Source of the DNA: Nitrospina sp. LS_NOB
GTDB lineage: Bacteria > Nitrospinota > Nitrospinia > Nitrospinales > VA-1
Direction of reading: 5' to 3'
Assembly (NCBI GenBank): GCA_001542995.1
Contig: LFLA01000021.1
Span: 186,001 to 250,000 of the forward strand
DNA length: 64,000 nt
Numbering within the stretch: position 1 is the first letter of the stretch; each line of letters opens with the position of its first letter. The notes beneath the pieces were generated by a model. That model worked only from the letters and a program-made list of their open reading frames with translations, had not been told where the DNA came from and did no database searches. Shown piece after piece: positions 27,249 to 39,385 of this stretch. The translations under genes and the position numbers were made by a program.

Positions 27249-27388
27249 TTACCAAACGTAGGGCCAGTTGTGAAGCACGGCTTTACCGGCATTAAACTGG
27301 CGGCTGCCCTGTTGGGCTATCGGAAAAGGTTCAGGCCCAAAAATGCTGAGCCTTGGGCGACCCAAAAAGCTAAGGAAAGGAGATGATT

Positions 27389-28147
27389 ATGTTTAATTTA
27401 AAAATAAGACTGGTCATTCTGACTGCAACCCTGTTCTTAAGTCAAAACGCTCTGGCGGCAACCGGAATGGACTCCATTGGCACCGGCAGTGCCGGCAGTT
27501 ATAGTCATGGAGAGCAAAAAGGTGAGGGCAGTAAAACCAAAACAATGCCCCACCATATTTCCGGAAGCAAAGGCCATCATATATCCGGAAACAGTAGTCA
27601 TCGTAAAGCGGAAGGAAGCGGCTCTAAAAAATCCTTTTCTTATCGTGGAAAGGAAGGGCACGACTATAGTCATAAAAAGTCAGAGGGCAGCGGCTCAAAA
27701 TCCTATTCCCATCATAGAAAATCAAAGGGACATAGCTACAAAAAGTCCGAAGGAAATTCGCGCCATGCCCGATCCGGTCACGGTTATAAAAAAAGTTCAC
27801 ATGGAAGCCATAGCAAATGCCCGTTCACCCATTTACTACGCTTCAAGGGTAAACTGGGCCTGACCGAAGCCCAGGTGGCAGAAGTCAAGAGACTGCGATT
27901 TGAATACCGGAAGAAAAGCATTCGCAACAAGGCCGAGCACAAAATTGCGCATATGGAGTTTAACAGACTGGTCCATGCTGAGAAGGTAAATGCCCAAGCC
28001 ATCCGATCAGCAGCAGGGAAAATTGCCGCGACCAAAACTCAAATGATAATGGCCACGGCAGAAGCAAAAATCGCTTTGCTCAACCTGTTGACTGAAGAAC
28101 AGCGGAAAAAAACTCACACCATGCATTCGGCTCATTCCTCTCACTGA
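27389..28147 (+). CDS. periplasmic Spy/CpxP-like protein with His/Ser-rich region
   Basis: A 252-residue secreted protein. ATG 27389 is preferred because AAAGGAG lies six bases upstream; ATG 27383 would touch that site. Signal peptide about 1-22. Residues about 25-140 are low-complexity, built from His, Ser, Gly, Lys with repeated SGSK, SHHRK and KSEG units, suited to binding metal ions. The C-terminal part (about 148-240) is the Spy/CpxP fold: LGLTEAQVAEVKRLRFEYRK and LLTEEQRKK, with the two LTxxQ motifs in place. Likely a periplasmic metal-responsive chaperone. It lies between tRNA-Arg and tRNA-Pro. Confidence 0.8.
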   Translation: MFNLKIRLVILTATLFLSQNALAATGMDSIGTGSAGSYSHGEQKGEGSKTKTMPHHISGSKGHHISGNSSHRKAEGSGSKKSFSYRGKEGHDYSHKKSEGSGSKSYSHHRKSKGHSYKKSEGNSRHARSGHGYKKSSHGSHSKCPFTHLLRFKGKLGLTEAQVAEVKRLRFEYRKKSIRNKAEHKIAHMEFNRLVHAEKVNAQAIRSAAGKIAATKTQMIMATAEAKIALLNLLTEEQRKKTHTMHSAHSSH

Positions 28148-29402: not shown

Positions 29403-29942
29403 ATGATAGAGCCGATTTACTTCAGCCTGTACGAACAGGTACCCGATTACAATGTGCGTGTCTTCCAAAGCACTCAATGGGTTCTCGACAATGGAGTGTC
29501 TCTTGAAGTCAGCATCATCGGGAAAAGCCATCGAGTGATAAGCCGCCTGGGGAAAAACTGTCTTACTGAATTCATTACTTGCTTTGACCCTAAATTACCC
29601 GAGAACGGCTTGGAGAAAGTGTGCATTCAACCGGATACCGTGCATGACCAGGAATATCGATCTGGCAAACTTTCATACCAGGTCAGCGTCGAACAGGTCG
29701 CCCACTTATATGATAACATGGATGAATTTTTAAATTCGTTAGACGGGATTTCCCCGTCACAGGTACTGACTCATGAATTCCCCGGCGTGCCGGGTTTCTC
29801 TGGAAAACCACTGCCTTTTACCGGTTTGGCATTGAATTCTGATACAAACACCTTTTATACTGTTCATACTTATCCCGAAAGTGACATTTCCACTATTAGC
29901 CGGACCACTATTAATTTACCGGTTTTATCGACGGCAACATGA
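29403..29942 (+). CDS. DUF2617 family protein
   Basis: A 179-residue protein. SLEVSIIGKSHRV (about 33-45), TCFDP, THEFPGVPGFSG, LPFTGLAL and the tail TVHTYPESDISTISRTTI match the DUF2617 order known from actinobacterial clusters that also carry DUF4178, DUF350 and spermidine synthase. Its function is not known; it lacks a signal peptide and is predicted to be cytosolic. It is the first gene of a tight five-gene operon and overlaps the J-domain gene by four bases. In other lineages the same family sits in polyamine- and membrane-stress modules, which fits the context here. Confidence 0.75.
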   Translation: MIEPIYFSLYEQVPDYNVRVFQSTQWVLDNGVSLEVSIIGKSHRVISRLGKNCLTEFITCFDPKLPENGLEKVCIQPDTVHDQEYRSGKLSYQVSVEQVAHLYDNMDEFLNSLDGISPSQVLTHEFPGVPGFSGKPLPFTGLALNSDTNTFYTVHTYPESDISTISRTTINLPVLSTAT

Positions 29943-30289
29943 TTAAGCGTCTTTTCAATATTGCGCGAGCCGAATTGAGCGACTTTGCGCAGAAAAAAAA
30001 ATGGGGCGAAAAAGATACTCCGTCAACGGAGCCTGAATTTTTCAATGACCGTGAGAAAGATACGAGTTCTTATTCGGCTCTTGATCCCTTAGCGAAATAC
30101 TACGCCAACCTGGAAATACCTGTTGGCTCTGATCGGGTAACGATAAAAAATGCCTGGAAAACGCAGATGAAAAAATACCACCCAGACCTTCATTGCTCTG
30201 ACCCGAAAAAAAAACAAATTGCCGAGGAACTCACCCGCCAATTGACTCAGGCGTATCGTACTCTGGATTCAGCATTTTTAAGAAAGTAA
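29939..30289 (+). CDS. J-domain protein of the PspA/DUF2170 operon
   Basis: A 116-residue protein. The N-terminal half (about 1-48) is charged and probably flexible. The C-terminal half is a J domain: LAKYYANLEI as helix I, ITIK-type positive helix II containing WKTQMKKY, the His81-Pro-Asp83 loop and helix III QIAEELTRQLTQAYRTL. This should stimulate a DnaK-type ATPase. It overlaps the DUF2617 gene by ATGA and is 12 bp before the DUF2170 gene. J-domain genes are not a standard member of the E. coli yjfI-type operon, so the pairing is notable. Confidence 0.85.
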   Translation: MIKRLFNIARAELSDFAQKKKWGEKDTPSTEPEFFNDREKDTSSYSALDPLAKYYANLEIPVGSDRVTIKNAWKTQMKKYHPDLHCSDPKKKQIAEELTRQLTQAYRTLDSAFLRK

Positions 30290-30301
30290 GAGGAGAAAAT
30301 A

Positions 30302-30694
30302 ATGTCCGATTTTGAGAAAGTGAAAGATTTTATACTTGATATGGGGTTCAACATAAGCCACGAGGACCCTAAGGAAGAGTTGGTGGTTATAGATGATGAT
30401 GAACGAGGAATCAAAAATCTCGTGATTGATTGCGAAGCCCCTATCCTGATTCTTGAGCAAGTCGTCATCCCCATGCCCCAGGATTCTTCCGATTTCTGCA
30501 AACGTCTTCTCCAAATCAATCGCACTTTGGTTCACGGTGCTTTTGTTCTCGACGAAGAAGGCACAACGCTATTATTCCGGGATACCCTGCAATTAGAAAA
30601 CCTGGATCGTAATGAATTGGAAGGAAGCATAGATGCATTGAGTCTAGCGCTGGCAGAATATGCAAATGAACTGGTTTCATTCGTGCGCGGGTAA
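30302..30694 (+). CDS. DUF2170 protein (YjfI-like)
   Basis: A 130-residue soluble protein. EELVVIDDDERGIKNLVIDC (about 27-46), ILILEQVVIPM, NRTLVHGAFVLDEEG and the C-terminal helix match the DUF2170/YjfI family, which in E. coli starts the yjfIJKLMC operon. Its role is not established; it is thought to work with the adjacent PspA homologue at the membrane. The start follows AGAGGAGA. It lies 29 bp before the PspA gene. Acidic residues at DDDER are a family feature. Confidence 0.82.
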   Translation: MSDFEKVKDFILDMGFNISHEDPKEELVVIDDDERGIKNLVIDCEAPILILEQVVIPMPQDSSDFCKRLLQINRTLVHGAFVLDEEGTTLLFRDTLQLENLDRNELEGSIDALSLALAEYANELVSFVRG

Positions 30695-30723
30695 ACACAA
30701 ATTCTGTAATGGAGAGATAAAAA

Positions 30724-31434
30724 ATGACCGGATTATTTACAAGAATACTGCGGCTGGGCAAGGCCGAGGCGCATTCTGTGGTGGACAAGTTCGAAGACCC
30801 TATCAAAATGACTGAGCAGGGCATTCGTGAACTTAAAAAGGATTTGGAAGAATCCATGAAAAGCCTGGCACAAGTTAAAAGCATTGTGATCCGTATGAGA
30901 AACGATGCGGAAAACAAAAAGAAGCTTGCGGCAGATTACGAAAGTAAGGCTATGGCTTTGTTACAAAAAGCCGAGCAGGGTTCACTGGAAATGTCTGAAG
31001 CTGAGAGGCTGGCAACCGAGGTTCTCTCGCGCAAAGAAGATGCAGCAAAAGAAGCCTTGCGGCTCAGCAAGGAGGTGACCTCCCAGGAAAGCATGGTTCT
31101 TCAATTACAACGCAACGTGGATAAACTACGCACTACCGTTCAGCGTTACGAAAATGATCTGGTCACCCTGCGTGCCCGTTCCAAAACAGCCGCCGCTACG
31201 AAAAAGCTGAATGCGCAAATCGCCAGAGTCGGGTCCGACAGCACTATCGCCATGCTTGAAAAAATGCGCGACAAAGTCGAGGAGGATGAGTCTCTGTCCC
31301 AAGCCTACGGTGAGATGGCCGATTCGGGGCAGAGCGTTGATGATGAGATCAATAAAGCCCTGGGTGAAGGTTCGTCCATGCCGGGAGTCTCTGACAGCCT
31401 TGCCACCCTTAAAGCTAAAATGAAGCTCAAATAA
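30724..31434 (+). CDS. PspA/IM30 family protein (YjfJ-like)
   Basis: A 236-residue ESCRT-III-like coiled-coil protein that forms helical rods on stressed inner membranes. Features: an amphipathic N-terminal helix TGLFTRILRLGKAEAHSV, then DKFEDPIKMTEQGIRELKKDLE and a continuous heptad region to about residue 195, and a short C-terminal tail with SMPGVSDSLATLKAK. The length is standard. It sits between DUF2170 and DUF4178 genes with a two-base gap to the latter, the same order as in the yjf operon. No PspF activator or sigma-54 promoter was seen near it, so regulation likely differs from the E. coli psp system. Confidence 0.92.
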   Translation: MTGLFTRILRLGKAEAHSVVDKFEDPIKMTEQGIRELKKDLEESMKSLAQVKSIVIRMRNDAENKKKLAADYESKAMALLQKAEQGSLEMSEAERLATEVLSRKEDAAKEALRLSKEVTSQESMVLQLQRNVDKLRTTVQRYENDLVTLRARSKTAAATKKLNAQIARVGSDSTIAMLEKMRDKVEEDESLSQAYGEMADSGQSVDDEINKALGEGSSMPGVSDSLATLKAKMKLK

Positions 31435-31436
31435 TC

Positions 31437-31988
31437 ATGGTCTTTGACTTTTTTAAAAAGAAAAAAGCGGAGTTTCAAAAAGAAGAGTTTCGTATCGAAG
31501 ATCTGGTGCTCAGCAAACTCAAAACAGGTTTCATGGTCGATTACGATATGCAAACCTACTGTGTCGCCGGATACAACAAATACCAGTGGAACGAAGGCGG
31601 TGTCACTGACGAATGGGAATTAAAGTCCGCCAACGAAACCTGGTTTTTGGAGCGCACCCAGGAAGATGGCGAAGTCGAATGGAGCCTGTGCCGTAAACTT
31701 CCCATCTCGGAGTTGGAAGGCGACATTGCAGGTGAAATCGAGCGCAACGAAGACCCGCCAGAGGTGATCGTGTTTCAGGGAAAACAATTCACTTTCGAGG
31801 AAGACGATATCGGCGAGTTTTTTCGCGGCGGATCGGGGGAAGCCCTGAGTTTTGTCTCCTGGGATTACGAAGACGGGGCGGAAGAACAATTCCTCACCAT
31901 CGAACAATGGGGCGAGACCAAATTCGACATGCAAGTCGGATTCAAGGTCGAGGAGTATCAATTCACCAACATCCTGCCAGGTGAGTGA
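31437..31988 (+). CDS. DUF4178 family protein (YjfK-like)
   Basis: A 183-residue protein of the DUF4178/DUF2491 (YjfK-like) group: FRIEDLVLSKLKTGFMVDYD (about 20-39) is a typical opening, then a beta-rich middle with WFLERTQEDGEVEWSLC and GKQFTFEEDDIGEF, followed by LTIEQWGETKFD. Cytosolic, strongly acidic, function unknown. It ends the five-gene plus-strand operon, and only 27 bp separate it from the convergent spermidine synthase gene; there is no clear terminator in this gap, so transcript read-through or antisense interference is possible. Confidence 0.8.
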   Translation: MVFDFFKKKKAEFQKEEFRIEDLVLSKLKTGFMVDYDMQTYCVAGYNKYQWNEGGVTDEWELKSANETWFLERTQEDGEVEWSLCRKLPISELEGDIAGEIERNEDPPEVIVFQGKQFTFEEDDIGEFFRGGSGEALSFVSWDYEDGAEEQFLTIEQWGETKFDMQVGFKVEEYQFTNILPGE

Positions 31989-32015
31989 TAGAGGCTCAAT
32001 GTTTAAATTACATCC

Positions 32016-33593
32016 TCAATACACATCCCAATTGCCCTGCCTGTAATACTTCAAGATATTGTGATCAAATTGGGTGTTGGGTTCGATTTGGGCCTCCTTT
32101 TCAAACAACCCCTTGCCGAAATGCGCCATCGAGATCATAGCATCCCGGTTTAAAAAACGGGTCTCGATGTCCGCGAATCCCACCATCAAAAGTTCTTGTT
32201 TGAGGCGCTGTGCAGGCATCGTTTTCTGTCTGACTCCAAGGACCCATCCCCATTGGCCCATGCTGGGCACGGAATTCTGATAAGGTACGGTCGAAAAGCC
32301 GGCGGCCTCCATAGTTTTCTTAATGCAAAGAAACGCTTCGGGAGAATACAACGGGCTTGTACTTTGCGTGACCATGGCGCCGAAAGGTTTTAGATGTTTC
32401 TCAACCATCTTGTAAAACCCCAGTGAGTAAAGTAGCGACAACGAAACCGATTTCGGATCGGGAAGATCGACGATAATGGCATCGTACAGATCGCCTGAGT
32501 TTTTTATGAATTGATAGGCGTCTTGATTGACCACGCGGACGCGAGGATCGTTGAGCGAACCCTGATTGATACCGAGAAAAATCTTATCCTGCCGGGCCAA
32601 CCGGGTCATGGCCGGATCAAGATCGACCAGAGTGAGATTTTCCATATCGGGATATTTGAGAATTTCCCTGGCGGCCAACCCATCTCCCCCTCCTAGTAGT
32701 AAGATATCCTTGCGTTCCTTGATAAGCCCCAGCACAGGGTGCACCAGGGGTTCATGATATCGTTCTTCGTCATAGGTACTGAATTGGGTGCTGCCATTTA
32801 TAAAAAGCCAATAATCATCTTTCCATTGCGTGACTACAATTTTCTGATACCGGGTTTGTTCCTGGTAAACGATTTTATCCTTATACTTGTGCTGTTCGCC
32901 GTACAGGATAATGGGTTTGGCAACCGCAAAGGCCAGGACCGAAACCAATAACAGAGCGATAAATTGAGCGTTGAGGATGCGAGGCCGCGTCAAGCGATCG
33001 GGGAAATACCACAATATTAGTGAGGCCACAACCAGGTTAAAGCTACCGATTAGGACAGGCGTGTAAGTCAGCCCAAGAAAAGGAAGCAGGACGAAGGCAA
33101 ACAAAGCTCCACCCAATAATCCGCCGTAGTAGTCAAATTCCATGACCGAGGATATATTCTCCCGCAACGATTCAAAGGACTGATTGATCCGCGTGATCAA
33201 CGGAATCTCGAGCCCGGTCAGGAACCCAATCATGCAGGCAACCGCATAAATCACAAGCCCGAAATTCATCGTGTAGGCCGAAATCCAAAAACAGAACATG
33301 GCGGAAAACGTACACAAGAACGACAGGCCGAATTCGATCAGCACAAAGCGGTCCAGTAGTTGGGCCTCAAATTTACGGCTATACCGGCTTCCCAGTCCCA
33401 TGGAAAACAACATGAGGGAGATCACTATTGTCCATTGCCGAATGGAATCGCCCAAAAGGTAGCTGGCCAGGGTGGCTAATGTGTATTCGGTCACCATCGC
33501 CGCGCATCCGGTAGCGAAGACGCAGATTTTCAAAATAAAACTCAAACGGCGGAGCTTGGATTTACCGGAGTTATCTATGGCGGGTGTCGACAT
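32016..33593 (-). CDS. membrane-bound spermidine synthase-like aminopropyltransferase
   Basis: A 525-residue protein. About seven hydrophobic helices occupy residues 20-235. The C-terminal domain is a polyamine aminopropyltransferase: FINGSTQFSTYDEERYHEPL (about 274-293), LLLGGGDGLAAREIL (about 309-323), VDLDP (about 334), VDLPDP (about 383) and YSLGFYK. The reaction would transfer an aminopropyl group from decarboxylated AdoMet to a diamine such as putrescine. The membrane-embedded form recurs in clusters with DUF350, DUF4178 and PspA. It is the last gene of a three-gene minus-strand operon and converges on the DUF4178 gene. The substrate is inferred from the family. Confidence 0.86.
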   Translation of the reverse strand: MSTPAIDNSGKSKLRRLSFILKICVFATGCAAMVTEYTLATLASYLLGDSIRQWTIVISLMLFSMGLGSRYSRKFEAQLLDRFVLIEFGLSFLCTFSAMFCFWISAYTMNFGLVIYAVACMIGFLTGLEIPLITRINQSFESLRENISSVMEFDYYGGLLGGALFAFVLLPFLGLTYTPVLIGSFNLVVASLILWYFPDRLTRPRILNAQFIALLLVSVLAFAVAKPIILYGEQHKYKDKIVYQEQTRYQKIVVTQWKDDYWLFINGSTQFSTYDEERYHEPLVHPVLGLIKERKDILLLGGGDGLAAREILKYPDMENLTLVDLDPAMTRLARQDKIFLGINQGSLNDPRVRVVNQDAYQFIKNSGDLYDAIIVDLPDPKSVSLSLLYSLGFYKMVEKHLKPFGAMVTQSTSPLYSPEAFLCIKKTMEAAGFSTVPYQNSVPSMGQWGWVLGVRQKTMPAQRLKQELLMVGFADIETRFLNRDAMISMAHFGKGLFEKEAQIEPNTQFDHNILKYYRQGNWDVY

Positions 33594-33623
33594 GGATTAA
33601 CAGTGACTAAAAAGGACCCAGCT

Positions 33624-34475
33624 TCAAATGCACCAAGTGATCAGGAAAGAGGCGCCGATGTAGGAGGAGGCTTCCAAGAAAGCCGCGCCTTGATTGGGTT
33701 TCACCTGGTTGACTAACTCGTCGGCCAAGCTACGTCCGGGTAAAAGAATGCGGTCTGTGAGAATGCGCGCAACGGGAAGCAGAATGAGCCCCACCACCAT
33801 GTAGAGGCCAAAGGTCGTCAAGTTTTCCTCCCAGGAAACAAAATGTTCGGCGGAAGCCGCGCGCAACAAGTTGCCGATACCTATCAGGGCTCCGGCAAAG
33901 CCGATCCCCACGGCAACGTTATCTTTTTCAATCTGCTCGTGAATATTGTATTGCGTGATGAGGTTATAATATTTTCCGACGAGAACGAGAACAGTCTGGC
34001 CCAAAGCCCAAAAGGCGATGGCCGTGACAATAGACCCACCCTGACCGTACAGGGCTCCGAAGATATTGAGTCCGGTCGCCACAAAAACGGCAAACTCGAC
34101 CACGCCTGTGCCGCAATTTTGGTCCTGCAAAATTTCCTTGCGGATATCGAACTCGGAAAGAATGAAACGGTCGTTGATCAAAGCTGAGAGGTTGAGCAAT
34201 AAAATCGCCAAAGGCCCGTAAACCAGAATATCGATCAAGTCCTCTCCCATCCCGGCGGATGGCCCGGATATCACTCCGCCGATGGAGAACGTTAATCCCA
34301 GATAATAACCACACAGAACCAGGGCGAACGCCGCATTGTCTTTTTCCACCAGTTCATCTTTGATGTTATAGCTCCGCCGGAAAAGAATAAACACCAGATG
34401 TCCGGCTACAAAGACAACAAAACAAGCAGCCAAATAAACCAATGAAGAAAAAATGTGATCTAGATTCATAATCAT
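33624..34475 (-). CDS. tandem DUF350 membrane protein (YjfL-like)
   Basis: A 283-residue integral membrane protein with about eight helices arranged as two DUF350 repeats. Each repeat has a DELVEKDNAAFALVLCGYYLG-like element (first copy about residues 40-60, IEKDNVAVGIGFAGALIG about 182-199), an internal sequence duplication. DUF350/YjfL proteins pair with PspA-like proteins in the yjf-type operons; their function is unknown, and ion or lipid-linked roles have been proposed. The start overlaps the stop of the upstream lipoprotein gene by four bases; the spermidine synthase follows after a 30-bp gap. Confidence 0.88.
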   Translation of the reverse strand: MIMNLDHIFSSLVYLAACFVVFVAGHLVFILFRRSYNIKDELVEKDNAAFALVLCGYYLGLTFSIGGVISGPSAGMGEDLIDILVYGPLAILLLNLSALINDRFILSEFDIRKEILQDQNCGTGVVEFAVFVATGLNIFGALYGQGGSIVTAIAFWALGQTVLVLVGKYYNLITQYNIHEQIEKDNVAVGIGFAGALIGIGNLLRAASAEHFVSWEENLTTFGLYMVVGLILLPVARILTDRILLPGRSLADELVNQVKPNQGAAFLEASSYIGASFLITWCI

Positions 34476-35209
34476 TTACCGAAACTGAACCCGCGACTTC
34501 TAAAGGTATTTTTGCTCCGCCCCATGCGTTGACTAACTTTATTCTGGAAGCGGGATTGTGACCGGGCTTTTTTGGCCATTCTTCTTTTGAAAAAATCAGG
34601 TTTTTGTTTTTTCGTTACCGTCCCGGCGGTTCCATATTCCTGCCTCGGCCCATAATAGGGCCTACCTACGTTGTGAAAAGAGGAATAATTATTATAGTGG
34701 TTCCGGCTTAGCCCGAACCCGGCCCAGTTCATCATCTGCGACATCAACATGTATTTTCCGTAAAACTCCCACATACTTCCGCCGCTGCTGTTGTCCCGCC
34801 AGCGGCCATACTGGGAATTGCCAACGTATTGGTAGCCGTTTGGAAAGGGCGTGGTGGAGACGGCACCCTCGATGGTTTTGGAGGCCAAAACCATGCCGAG
34901 ATACGGTTGATTTTTTTGATAATAAGATTTGTCGACTTCCACGAAGGGACGCACGGATTTTCGTTCTCCGACATCGACACGGTATTGGTGGTAGTAGGAT
35001 GGGAAGAAGTTGCCCTGCTCGCGCATGTCATTCAAAATAATCGCGTATTCCTTCTCGCCTTTCAGTTCGCCCTGGATTTTCTTTACCGGATTCTGTGCGG
35101 CCCCGCAACCCTGGAAAAGAAGAGCAGTCAGTAAGAAAGGAAGAAGAGAAATCCTCCCCTTCTCTCTGAGCAATGGATTGAACTCGGTCAAAAGGTTGCC
35201 TCGATGCAT
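34472..35209 (-). CDS. lipoprotein of the DUF350/spermidine synthase operon
   Basis: A 245-residue protein with a long N-region, a hydrophobic stretch SLLPFLLTALLFQGC and a lipobox LFQGC (Cys about 35), so probably lipidated. The mature part contains YGRWRDNSSGGSMWEFYGKY (about 136-155), an aromatic and Asn/Tyr-rich segment, and an Arg/Lys-rich tail ending RGFSFGK. This resembles proteins found next to DUF350 genes and occupies the position of YjfM (DUF1190), but I cannot confirm that family. It starts the minus-strand operon and is divergent from the potassium channel across about 180 bp. Confidence 0.7.
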   Translation of the reverse strand: MHRGNLLTEFNPLLREKGRISLLPFLLTALLFQGCGAAQNPVKKIQGELKGEKEYAIILNDMREQGNFFPSYYHQYRVDVGERKSVRPFVEVDKSYYQKNQPYLGMVLASKTIEGAVSTTPFPNGYQYVGNSQYGRWRDNSSGGSMWEFYGKYMLMSQMMNWAGFGLSRNHYNNYSSFHNVGRPYYGPRQEYGTAGTVTKKQKPDFFKRRMAKKARSQSRFQNKVSQRMGRSKNTFRSRGFSFGK

Positions 35210-35389
35210 TTTTAGAATATTAAACTAAAGGTACGTAACCTTCCGCTGACCACCCTATAAAAGATAACCCGCCGTGTCAACACTGGAAGGATAAAAACAT
35301 ACGTTTGTTGTATATGAGAGTTTTTCTTCTCTAGAGTAAACCGCTATAATAAGTTCTTTAATGAGCCTTTTTGGACGGAAATCTATAAC

Positions 35390-36505
35390 ATGTTTTTTTA
35401 TCCATTTAAACGCATCCTGAGAAAACTCAGGCAACCGGAAATCCGGTTGCTTTTCGTCCTGGGCTTGATCTTTTTTTCAATGATTCTGATTTTTGCGTTC
35501 GTGCTGTCGACTTACGAAAAGGATATGACCTTTTCAGACGGCCTATGGACAGCATACATCACTTTAACAACGATCGGATACGGGGATATTTCAGCGGCGA
35601 CCCCTGAAGGACGGTGGACCACGGTTGTGACCTCGATGCTAGGAATCGGTTGTTTCGGGGTTTTGACCGGGATCATTCTGGAACGGGCCATGCAAAGGAG
35701 GATGAAAAAAATGAAAGGCGAGGGCAATTATACAGGCAAAGGGCATTTGATCATTGTGAACGTTCCTTCTTATGCGGAGACAATAGAATTATTGAAAGAA
35801 CTGGACTACAGTCCCGACTTCAAGGATATTCCTCGCGTGATCGTGACCACAAATTTACCCAACCGGGATAAAGAACTACCCGATTTTTTGGTTCGTAAAA
35901 TAGACGCATTTATCATGGGCCTGCCATCGGCTTTGGAAACTTTGCAACGGGCCAACGCGGCCCAGTCCAAAGCTTGCGTCCTCACCTCTTCCGCCGCCGA
36001 CCCGGCGATGGACGACACCAATACCCTGACAGCCGGCCTCATTGAAAAAAACTGGCCGCAAGTCGTCACAGTCATGACCTGTAGCCGCGCCGAAACCTTG
36101 AACAACCTCAGCACCTTCGGCATCGATGGTGGCATCAGCACCACCGATTTGCAAATGGGACTTTTGGTGCAGGAATTGGAAGATCCCGGCTTGTATCAAA
36201 TTTATAGAGAATTGTCCTCCAACGCCGATGGCAACCAGATTTATATCAGCCATTCAGCCGTGGGGTTATGGGATGACCATGACCGGGAGTTCAGTATCGG
36301 AAGTTTAAAGATGGCCGCCATTCAGCTCAATCTCCCGGTTGAAGTATTGGGCATCCAAAGTAAAGAAGGAGGAAAGCTGAACCTCAATCCTGAAAACAGC
36401 CTGATTCTAACTGCCACCGACCATATCGTTTATATGTCCAGGAAGCGTTTCGACTGGTTGAAAAACAATGGTAAAATTCTGCAACATATCCAAAAGATGT
36501 CTTGA
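35390..36505 (+). CDS. RCK-domain potassium channel
   Basis: A 371-residue two-helix potassium channel. TM1 covers about 20-40, the pore loop carries the selectivity filter TTIGYGD (60-66), and TM2 about 80-97 is followed by a Lys/Arg-rich linker. The cytosolic part (about 110-345) is a RCK/TrkA-N domain starting GHLIIVNVPSYAETIELL, with an unusually divergent nucleotide loop (no GxGxxG). It is divergent from the lipoprotein/DUF350/spermidine synthase operon. A channel of this type recurs beside PspA and DUF350 genes. Conductance regulation by polyamines or envelope stress is an inference from the neighbours. Confidence 0.9.
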   Translation: MFFYPFKRILRKLRQPEIRLLFVLGLIFFSMILIFAFVLSTYEKDMTFSDGLWTAYITLTTIGYGDISAATPEGRWTTVVTSMLGIGCFGVLTGIILERAMQRRMKKMKGEGNYTGKGHLIIVNVPSYAETIELLKELDYSPDFKDIPRVIVTTNLPNRDKELPDFLVRKIDAFIMGLPSALETLQRANAAQSKACVLTSSAADPAMDDTNTLTAGLIEKNWPQVVTVMTCSRAETLNNLSTFGIDGGISTTDLQMGLLVQELEDPGLYQIYRELSSNADGNQIYISHSAVGLWDDHDREFSIGSLKMAAIQLNLPVEVLGIQSKEGGKLNLNPENSLILTATDHIVYMSRKRFDWLKNNGKILQHIQKMS

Positions 36506-37150: not shown

Positions 37151-37660
37151 AACGTTGAACTGCTTGATTCTTTGATGAATCTGGTCGGGGAAGTTGTTCT
37201 GGCCCGGAATCAGTTTTCCCGGCTCATCCATGACAATAACGATTCAACGATTCATGGAACCTCGCAAAGCCTCAACCGGGTGACCACCGACCTTCAGGAA
37301 ACTGTGATGAAGGCTCGGATGCAACCTATTAAAAATGTCTGAGGCAAACTTCCTCGAATGATTCGCGATCTTTCCATGAACTGCGGCAACAAAGTCCGCC
37401 TTGAAATGGAAGGACAGGATTCCGATCTGGATAAATCCCTGATCACCGCTATCCAAGACCCTCTGATGAACATTATCCGAAATGCCATCGTGCATGGCAT
37501 TGAGACCCCGGAGGAGCGCCGAAACCTGGGAAAACCCGAAGAAGGAGTCATCCGGCTACGTGCCTTCAATCAAAGCGGACAGATACATATCGAAGTTCAG
37601 GATGACGGTCGTGGTGTGAATTTTCAAGCTGTCAAAACCCAGGTCGTGAATGAAAGTTGT
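37151..37660 (+). pseudogene. cheA remnant with an internal stop
   Basis: One reading frame gives VELLDSLMNLVGEVVLARNQ (dimerisation and start of the kinase core), LNRVTTDLQETVMKARMQPI, then TGA at 37340-37342 where CheA has Trp (NVWGKLPR), then MIRDLS, the N-box NIIRNAIVHGIE and the G1-box VQDDGRGV. The receptor-coupling and HPt domains are absent and the frame dissolves after about 37660. It is a fragment of a CheA histidine kinase with at least one nonsense change; no other chemotaxis gene is in the window. Confidence 0.85.
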
Positions 37661-37729
37661 GAAAAAATTTTACAAACAGTACTCCGCCCATTCGGCGCCC
37701 CTAGCCGTGGAGTCAATGAGCCCGGCGGG

Positions 37730-38176
37730 CTAGTTAGCCCCACGCTGAGTGGTGACAGATTCGCAAAGCGGGATGCTTTGGGTAGGCTCGTTCAGAATCA
37801 AGGCAACGGTCGAGGTACGAAATAGTTCTTCTATCATGTCAATCGAATCATTGACCTGTTTATGCAGTCGGCAAAGATGGGTGCCATGGGTTTTCAGTTT
37901 CAAGGGACAACTCTTTATATGTTTGATGGGGTCCACCGCGTTGATAACATTCAGCAATGGCAGATCTTCAGGGTCGTGCGCCAGCACATAACCCCCATGC
38001 AGACCTTTCTTGGAAATAACCACCTCGTGCTTGGCCAGAGCCAGCAAAACCTTGGACAAATAATGTTCGGGAACCTTGGTCCACTTGGCAATTTCCGCTG
38101 TGGTGTGAGGCTTATCCGGATTCTGGGCCAGACAAACCACGGCCCGCAAAGCATATTCTGAAGTCTGAGAAATCAT
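37730..38176 (-). CDS. Rrf2 family regulator, divergent to nirK
   Basis: A 148-residue winged-helix regulator. The N-terminal MISQTSEYALRAVVCLAQ and helix-turn-helix TTAEIAKWTKVPEHYLSKVL (about 25-44) are typical. The sensor loop has Cys90 and Cys102 with His97 and His105 (SCPLKLKTHGTHLC), which differs from the three-Cys NsrR/IscR loop but could hold an iron-sulfur cluster with mixed ligands. Divergent transcription from nirK across an intergenic region with palindromes suggests a nitric oxide- or redox-sensing repressor of nirK; that is inference. The gene overlaps the end of the cheA remnant region. Confidence 0.88.
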   Translation of the reverse strand: MISQTSEYALRAVVCLAQNPDKPHTTAEIAKWTKVPEHYLSKVLLALAKHEVVISKKGLHGGYVLAHDPEDLPLLNVINAVDPIKHIKSCPLKLKTHGTHLCRLHKQVNDSIDMIEELFRTSTVALILNEPTQSIPLCESVTTQRGAN

Positions 38177-38267: not shown

Positions 38268-38407
38268 CATATATGGCTTTTTGTCCGGATCCGGTTCGTT
38301 TTCGAGTCTTGGGCCGACCACAGAAAATTTCGGGATACGAAGAGATTTTTTAATCCACACCAACCTATTTCAGCAACTGCATTTTCAATATTTTAGGAGG
38401 ATTGCTA

Positions 38408-39385
38408 ATGAAAAAACTAACAAGTGCTTTAGTCGCGTTTGCCCTGGTTGCCGGGTTCGGCGCCACTGCGGCTTTCGCCGAAGTCACGGCGATACTGACC
38501 CACGCCCCCAACGTTCCGCCTGCCACAAAGCGCGGAACCGATACCGTTGTGATCCATTTAGAAGCCAAAGAATATGTGGGTGATCTGGCGGATGGTGTGA
38601 AATATAATTTCTGGAGTTTTGGCGGAACCGTTCCGGGTCCTATGGCACGACTTCGCGTGGGTGACAGCATTGAGTTCCACTTGTCCAACGCCAAAGGTAA
38701 CATGCAACCTCACAACATCGACATCCACGCTGTTAACGGACCCGGCGGTGGTGCCGCTTTTACTACGGTGGACCCCGGAGAAGAGAAAGTTTTTACCTTC
38801 AAGGCCAAGGCGGCCGGACTTTTTATTTACCATTGTGCAGCCGGTTCCATTGTCGACCATATCTCCAACGGTATGTATGGCTTGGTTCTGGTCGAGCCGG
38901 AAGGCGGGCTTTCAAAGGTTGACCGGGAATATTATGTTATGGAAAGTGAGTTTTTCACCGGAGAACCTGAAAATGGCATCGCTCCATTTGATATTCAAAA
39001 GGGACTTGACGAACACCCCACCCATGTCGTCTTTAACGGCAAAGAAGGCGGATTGCTCGGCGATAATGCTTTGAAAGCCAAAGTCGGTGAAACAGTGAGA
39101 ATCTATTTTGGCAACATTGGTCCCAACGGCATTTCTTCTTTTCATATCATTGGGGAAATCTTCGATAAGGTTTACAACGAAGGGGGAATTGGCGGTGCCA
39201 CCGGCAAGAACATTCAAACCACTCTGGTGCCTTCTGCCGGCGCAACGATTGTCGAGTTCAAAGTCGATGCACCGGGAACCTATGTTCTGGTTGACCACAG
39301 TATCTACCGGGTCGCTAAAGGCGCCATCGGGCATCTGGTGGTTGAGGGAGCTGAAAACCCGAAAGTCATCCGCCAGGGAAAATAA
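38408..39385 (+). CDS. nirK: copper nitrite reductase, AniA-type
   Basis: A 325-residue periplasmic enzyme (signal peptide 1-24) that reduces nitrite to nitric oxide. By family alignment all ligands are present: type 1 copper His102, Cys143, His151, Met156; type 2 copper His107, His142, His297; catalytic Asp105 and His246. The spacing from Cys143 to His151 is eight, as in AniA-like enzymes rather than the Alcaligenes type. ATG 38408 follows TAGGAGG at good distance. It is divergent from a Rrf2 regulator and followed by a terminator. In nitrite oxidisers nirK homologues are common, but the physiological direction is debated. Confidence 0.95.
   Translation: MKKLTSALVAFALVAGFGATAAFAEVTAILTHAPNVPPATKRGTDTVVIHLEAKEYVGDLADGVKYNFWSFGGTVPGPMARLRVGDSIEFHLSNAKGNMQPHNIDIHAVNGPGGGAAFTTVDPGEEKVFTFKAKAAGLFIYHCAAGSIVDHISNGMYGLVLVEPEGGLSKVDREYYVMESEFFTGEPENGIAPFDIQKGLDEHPTHVVFNGKEGGLLGDNALKAKVGETVRIYFGNIGPNGISSFHIIGEIFDKVYNEGGIGGATGKNIQTTLVPSAGATIVEFKVDAPGTYVLVDHSIYRVAKGAIGHLVVEGAENPKVIRQGK

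Follow-up and report, generated by a model that had tools for sequence, protein, structure and literature searches.

A J-domain protein gene with a fixed place upstream of CesT-PspA in Nitrospina and other bacteria, a possible link between DnaK and PspA

Within a 64,000-nucleotide window of the Nitrospina sp. LS_NOB genome (contig LFLA01000021.1, positions 186,001 to 250,000), nine genes form an island at 29403-36505 (all coordinates are positions within the window) in which a small J-domain protein is encoded directly upstream of a CesT_Tir_1 protein, a PspA/IM30 protein and a DUF4178 protein. The J gene is a conserved, fixed-position member of this cluster and no accident, because it lay upstream of CesT-PspA-DUF4178 in all 18 Nitrospinota neighborhoods and none of the 60 genomes in our sample of the phylum carried J without CesT. 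By analogy with a chloroplast system, we propose that the island encodes a CesT-PspA-polyamine envelope-stress system with a dedicated Hsp70 co-chaperone, in which a membrane-tethered J protein would hand PspA polymers to DnaK, a reading to which we give a probability of roughly 0.55. The recurrence in several phyla of a J protein with a PspA-like helix suggests that DnaK may remodel the membrane-repair polymer. As judged from the open-access literature, including the main text of Ravi et al. (2024; PMC11237479), from which the terms “DnaJ” and “J-domain” are absent, the J protein is apparently an undescribed component of a known system.

The J Gene Within Nitrospinota

Full-length J relatives were found in 23 of the 60 genomes, the window's own included, CesT in 26 and DUF2617 in 22. 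J and CesT occurred together in 23 genomes, J alone in none, and CesT alone in three, one with a partial CesT (G004) and two with a divergent one (Fisher p ~1e-13; this and the following p values are uncorrected for kinship). J and DUF2617 shared 21 genomes, with J only in two and DUF2617 only in one (p ~7e-13), and the co-occurrence p within the genus was 9e-4. The order J-CesT-PspA-DUF4178, with J directly upstream of CesT, was kept even where DUF2617 lay on another contig (G025, G029) or was undetected (G056), and DUF2617 was rejected as an obligate partner of J because J keeps its position without it. Two weak J matches (L031 and L039, 35–38 bits) proved to be other J proteins without the cluster. 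The entire nine-gene arrangement recurs in sister genomes (L033-L037 and L040, the channel gene of L040 being cut at the contig end) and is therefore not due to chance. A different cluster was seen in a genome of the same class (L089:5155-10096, G059), with the order DUF350-?-CesT-PspA-response-regulator-like-AdoMet decarboxylase, AdoMet being S-adenosylmethionine; it resembles the published third group.

The source genome (2.65 Mb, 98.8% complete) encodes one full-length DnaK and has ten J-domain matches, that of the island and nine others. Operon neighbors often have only regulation in common, and both this and the nine additional J-domain matches are compatible with an ordinary housekeeping co-chaperone that is co-expressed under stress and has no specific physical link to PspA. 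We consider this improbable, given that the island protein belongs to a distinct J family (signature LA.YYANLE.P.GSD, PspA-like N-terminus) whose gene order is fixed over several phyla.

Anatomy of the J Protein

The island protein is a J-domain protein by its Pfam score, its HPD motif and its predicted helix II-loop-helix III fold. The AlphaFold2 (AF2) model comprises an N-terminal helix (residues 2–18), a low-confidence linker, J-domain helix II (66–84) and helix III (89–115), with a predicted local distance difference test score (pLDDT) of about 90 for the J-domain helices. The J domain itself spans residues 52–115, preceded by a disordered linker with an excess of acidic residues, and its top Foldseek matches were J domains with probability 1.00. 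Helix II is basic, carrying K70, K74, K78 and K79 ahead of the HPD, which lies at residues 81–83 as given in a preliminary description made from the window's sequence and was kept in 25 of 25 aligned J proteins. In the model and by Foldseek the J domain is a normal one, helix II and the loop with the HPD included.

As judged from sequence comparison, the N-terminal helix resembles the PspA/Vipp1 membrane helix alpha0. The J protein of locus L062, for example, has MSVFSRLYEIVRANLN there, compared with MGIFSRFADIVNANIN in E. coli PspA and MGLFDRLGRVVRANLND in Synechocystis Vipp1. Scored against Vipp1 alpha0, 18 of 25 J N-termini exceeded all 398 control N-termini, and the family mean of 29.8 was reached by 0 of 1000 shuffles that preserved the hydropathy pattern (11.7 ± 3.0). 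With the E. coli DnaJ N-terminus as the reference, the shuffle test gave no signal. The hydrophobic moment of the J N-termini was raised on average (0.58 vs. 0.38), though not extreme for any one protein. A stand-alone J protein in Myxococcales (L071:7500-8192), with no CesT-PspA nearby, has an N-terminus, IGKRFVKLIRSNLNSLLDKTADYE, that is PspA-like past alpha0.

Occurrence in Other Phyla

A J-family search of genome contigs, followed by profile annotation of the loci (phylum names are those of the record titles), located this J family immediately ahead of the CesT-PspA genes in KSB1 (L056, L072), Chloroherpetonaceae (L059), Gemmatimonadetes (L060, L065), Calditrichia/Calditrichaeota (L062, L066), Acidobacteria (L069, L070, L073-L075, L077, and L078, Vicinamibacterales, Thermoanaerobaculia and Bryobacterales among them) and a metagenome-assembled genome (MAG) titled Chloroflexi (L054). 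Locus L082, titled Nitrospirae, is the contig of G056, assigned by kinship to the window's class, and the contig of L055, titled Bacteroidetes, ends just past J. With J recurring at a fixed position in several phyla, the main condition named in the preliminary description for its refutation, absence of J genes from all related clusters, does not hold. Three loci (L066, L069, L074) hold DUF4178-lipoprotein-DUF350-spermidine synthase-K+ channel-J-CesT-PspA on a single strand. These one-strand clusters, in which the genes make up one system, are the best evidence that the window's three transcription units belong together, as had been proposed. In L062, the neighbors of J-CesT-PspA include a band-7 protein and sigma-54 activators. 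In both Gemmatimonadetes loci (L060:9536-11209, L065:9440-11107) a large, apparently exported protein is encoded between PspA and spermidine synthase; that of L060 is an FAD-dependent oxidoreductase, perhaps a polyamine oxidase.

A survey that took CesT (PF22550) as bait, instead of J, and covered three more phyla found J directly upstream on the same strand in 22 of 51 strong CesT loci, or in 18 of 47 after removal of the four loci first reached via J. By phylum, the counts were 2 of 3 (that of the Acidobacteria MAG G073), 9 of 18 (Chloroherpetonaceae MAG G063) and 11 of 30 (Gemmatimonadetes MAG G064; best 30 of 41). The weak CesT matches of this survey, in which PspA lies upstream of CesT, never had J, and a plasmid collection yielded one CesT relative (Hymenobacter) and no J relative.

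These neighborhoods also bear on a different client. J immediately adjoins CesT in every cluster, the K+ channel gene is often on its other side (L055, L056, L066, L069, L074, L082), and CesT-family proteins are client-binding chaperones (PMC11237479), all of which would suit a J protein that recruits DnaK at the membrane for the folding or regulation of a client other than PspA: the K+ channel, the CesT-like protein or the membrane-bound spermidine synthase. J-CesT-PspA is nevertheless intact in five loci with no spermidine synthase or K+ channel in view (L058, L061, L062, L064, L180), and the N-terminal helix of J resembles PspA's own; we therefore hold this explanation to be unlikely.

J and AAA+ ATPases

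Four J-less CesT-PspA clusters (L182-L184, L186) carry a band-7 protein and a DUF3686/AAA+ ATPase and correspond to published group 1, CesT-PspA-YqiJ-band-7-AAA+ (Ravi et al., 2024). They share the CesT and PspA families with the island and differ from it in the band-7 and AAA+ genes and in having no J, and a DUF3686/AAA+ ATPase was found in none of the J clusters in view. The pattern fits J and AAA+ as alternative ATP-driven remodelers, in a small sample. We would go further only tentatively, and with less than even confidence, to suggest that two interchangeable ATP machines recycle the polymers of CesT-PspA-type PspA, a bacterial ESCRT-III: either the AAA+ ATPase of the operon, or DnaK acting through a J protein that mimics the PspA helix and possibly inserts into or caps the polymer. 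If this is true, chloroplast CDJ2-HSP70B-VIPP1 would be a single instance of a strategy more widely used by bacteria.

Relation to Known Systems

Operons of CesT-PspA, DUF4178, DUF350, a lipoprotein and a membrane spermidine synthase have been described as a class (Ravi et al., 2024; PMC11237479). With CesT/Tir-PspA, DUF4178, DUF350 and membrane spermidine synthase, the island falls into the “second major group” of that study (e.g., AAN56744-AAN56747), with which it shares CesT/Tir-PspA, DUF4178, the eight-transmembrane (8TM) DUF350, a putative lipoprotein and the membrane spermidine synthase; it differs by the J protein, DUF2617, the RCK-type K+ channel and the split into three units. The putative lipoprotein stands where that group has the “novel lipoprotein (Ctha_1186 domain)”. 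The same study describes a ligand-sensing K+ channel in its third group and reports DUF2617 from a variant that lacks the CesT-PspA dyad.

The E. coli yjfIJKLMC operon and group 3 (ATP-grasp peptide-spermidine ligase) have in common with the island a CesT-like protein, PspA, DUF350 and a polyamine enzyme, but encode DUF2170, DUF2491, DUF1190 and the YjfC ligase, with no J, DUF4178 or spermidine synthase. None of the nine island genes encodes an ATP-grasp protein, as stated in the preliminary description, and likewise none encodes DUF2491 or DUF1190. The P. aeruginosa bac cluster shares the CesT-like-PspA dyad (BacA, DUF2170; BacB, PspA), its DUF2170 family being unlike the island's CesT_Tir_1; the available portion of its report mentions no J gene and describes an increase of BacB upon osmotic shock (PMC10948618).

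The closest functional counterpart is in the chloroplast. In Chlamydomonas, oligomers and rods of VIPP1 are both built and taken apart by HSP70B/CDJ2/CGE1, and Vipp1 of cyanobacteria interacts with DnaK2 and DnaK3 (PMC10602608, citing Liu 2005, 2007; PMC6882379; PMC13051332). There, recruitment of Hsp70 by a J protein dedicated to the PspA/VIPP1 polymer was shown biochemically, and we propose that the island may work likewise. CDJ2 is eukaryotic, whereas the island J protein is bacterial, encoded in a PspA operon and equipped with a PspA-like helix; the likeness proposed here is one of function.

Proposed Mechanism

PspA would polymerize on the stressed inner membrane, as established for its family, and the J protein would use its alpha0-like helix to dock either on that membrane or directly on PspA. 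The flexible linker could then offer the J domain to DnaK, of which the genome encodes a single one, and DnaK would take PspA polymers apart or rearrange them at the cost of ATP while the CesT-like protein holds PspA subunits or client peptides. Judging from gene linkage, the spermidine synthase-like enzyme, DUF350, the lipoprotein, DUF4178 and the K+ channel may monitor the polyamine and ion conditions at this membrane or adjust them. J and DnaK would thus act as CDJ2-HSP70B does on VIPP1, and may replace the AAA+ ATPase of the sister clusters. The preliminary description had also proposed that DnaK is recruited to PspA and that polyamines, K+ and membrane repair are linked, points that we infer as well; its interpretation is supported in part, and it had overlooked both the likeness of the J N-terminus to PspA and the precedent of CDJ2 and VIPP1.

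Several observations weigh against this mechanism. The resemblance to alpha0 extends over a short stretch and may reflect convergence, the comparison of the window's own J helix with E. coli PspA was not significant by itself, and some Bacteroidota J proteins (L114, L121, L122, L125) seem to be without a PspA-like helix. J is common in CesT-PspA clusters and neither universal nor obligatory, since about 60% of comparable pairs in the other sampled phyla are without it, and several of those seen at length are without AAA+ too, forming a third class that has neither J nor AAA+ (L173-L176, L185, E. coli yjfIJKL). The mutual exclusion of AAA+ and J derives from four AAA+ clusters in one phylum sample.

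Ravi et al. (2024) stated that the regulation of assembly is unknown for PspA homologs without an associated AAA ATPase (PMC11237479). A dedicated co-chaperone with a PspA-like helix is a concrete candidate answer, and the J gene ties bacterial PspA biology to chloroplast VIPP1-HSP70.

DUF2617 and Polyamine Supply

The DUF2617 gene overlaps the J gene by the ATGA reported earlier (29939-29942). Its product has a beta-rich AF2 model (pLDDT 91.6) and the motif TVHTYPE, within a region, HxF..(P)FTG...T(V/I)HTYPE, that resembles the AdoMet decarboxylase core (common pattern HxF...TG...HT(Y/W)PE). A PF02675 match in G014 overlaps the DUF2617 coordinates below the cut-off (E 2e-4), and human AdoMet decarboxylase is the first-ranked Foldseek match, a weak one (E 0.012, TM 0.25, poor overlap); no sequence relatives were found in PDB. 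The hhalign probability was 33%, and neither the self-cleaving (pyruvoyl) ESH serine nor the FTCG catalytic cysteine has a conserved counterpart. The motif is suggestive and the similarity weak, and with these two catalytic positions missing, the residues of DUF2617 do not support a role as an AdoMet decarboxylase.

The source genome gave no match to PF02675, the canonical AdoMet decarboxylase, though the island holds a spermidine synthase-like gene; the family was above the cut-off in only 1 of 60 relatives. This gap, the ATGA coupling and the resemblances above would all be expected if DUF2617 partnered the spermidine synthase as an AdoMet decarboxylase relative that handles AdoMet or decarboxylated AdoMet, with J mainly stabilizing DUF2617. 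We regard that as highly improbable, in view of the hhalign value and the missing catalytic residues, and of the J gene, which stays beside CesT-PspA even in genomes whose DUF2617 lies elsewhere or was undetected.

Island Layout and Neighboring Genes

All nine open reading frames are present with the coordinates and strands first described (Table 1), including the convergent gap of 27 bp (31989-32015). Pfam matches agree with the original labels for DUF2617, DnaJ, PspA_IM30, DUF4178, Spermine_synth, the tandem DUF350 and the ion channel. The exception is the third gene, which had been called DUF2170 (YjfI) and is instead CesT_Tir_1, with no PF09938 match up to E 0.01. The name YjfK for the DUF4178 protein also had to be dropped, because E. 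coli YjfK is DUF2491 (YjfI being DUF2170). By family assignment, the CesT_Tir_1 protein is a CesT/Tir superfamily partner of PspA and the PspA/IM30 protein an ESCRT-III-like polymer subunit. The spermidine synthase-like protein has a hydrophobic N-terminal region and matches the polyamine aminopropyltransferase model NF002956 (583.6 bits; curated cut-off 472), the putative lipoprotein has no Pfam or NCBIfam match, and the K+ channel-like gene is divergent from the lipoprotein operon.

Table 1. Genes of the island, with their positions in the window and the evidence for each assignment.
Product	Length (amino acids)	Coordinates	Strand	Evidence
DUF2617 protein	179	29403..29942	+	PF10936, 44.2 bits (cut-off 22.3)
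Small J-domain protein	116	29939..30289	+	PF00226, 37.9 bits (cut-off 27.8)
CesT_Tir_1 chaperone-like protein	130	30302..30694	+	PF22550, 173.8 bits, E 2e-51
PspA/IM30 family protein	236	30724..31434	+	PF04012, 156.3 bits
DUF4178 protein	183	31437..31988	+	PF13785, 71.4 bits
Spermidine synthase-like aminopropyltransferase	525	32016..33593	-	PF01564, 136 bits
Tandem DUF350 (YjfL-like) membrane protein	283	33624..34475	-	PF03994, two stretches, E 5e-52
Putative lipoprotein	245	34472..35209	-	No Pfam or NCBIfam match; position as for the Ctha_1186-domain lipoprotein
K+ channel-like protein, RCK-like C-terminus	371	35390..36505	+	PF07885, 53.5 bits

An Rfam search of the window matched tRNA only. 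A scan for sigma-54 promoters gave only two-mismatch matches near the island and an overall count no higher than chance; scans for sigma-70 promoters and terminators were close to background and were not used. Upstream of the island by 1.3 kb, beside tRNA-Pro, lies a possible further envelope-stress gene (27383-28147, +), whose product is rich in histidine, looks secreted and contains an LTXXQ (CpxP/Spy-like)/Metal_resist domain. Directly after the island are genes assigned by eye to an Rrf2-type regulator (37730-38176, -) and a copper nitrite reductase-like protein (38402-39385, +). Between the K+ channel gene and the Rrf2-like regulator gene sits a truncated HATPase_c reading frame (37358-37825, +; sub-threshold match), CheA-like by eye and possibly a decayed chemotaxis kinase.

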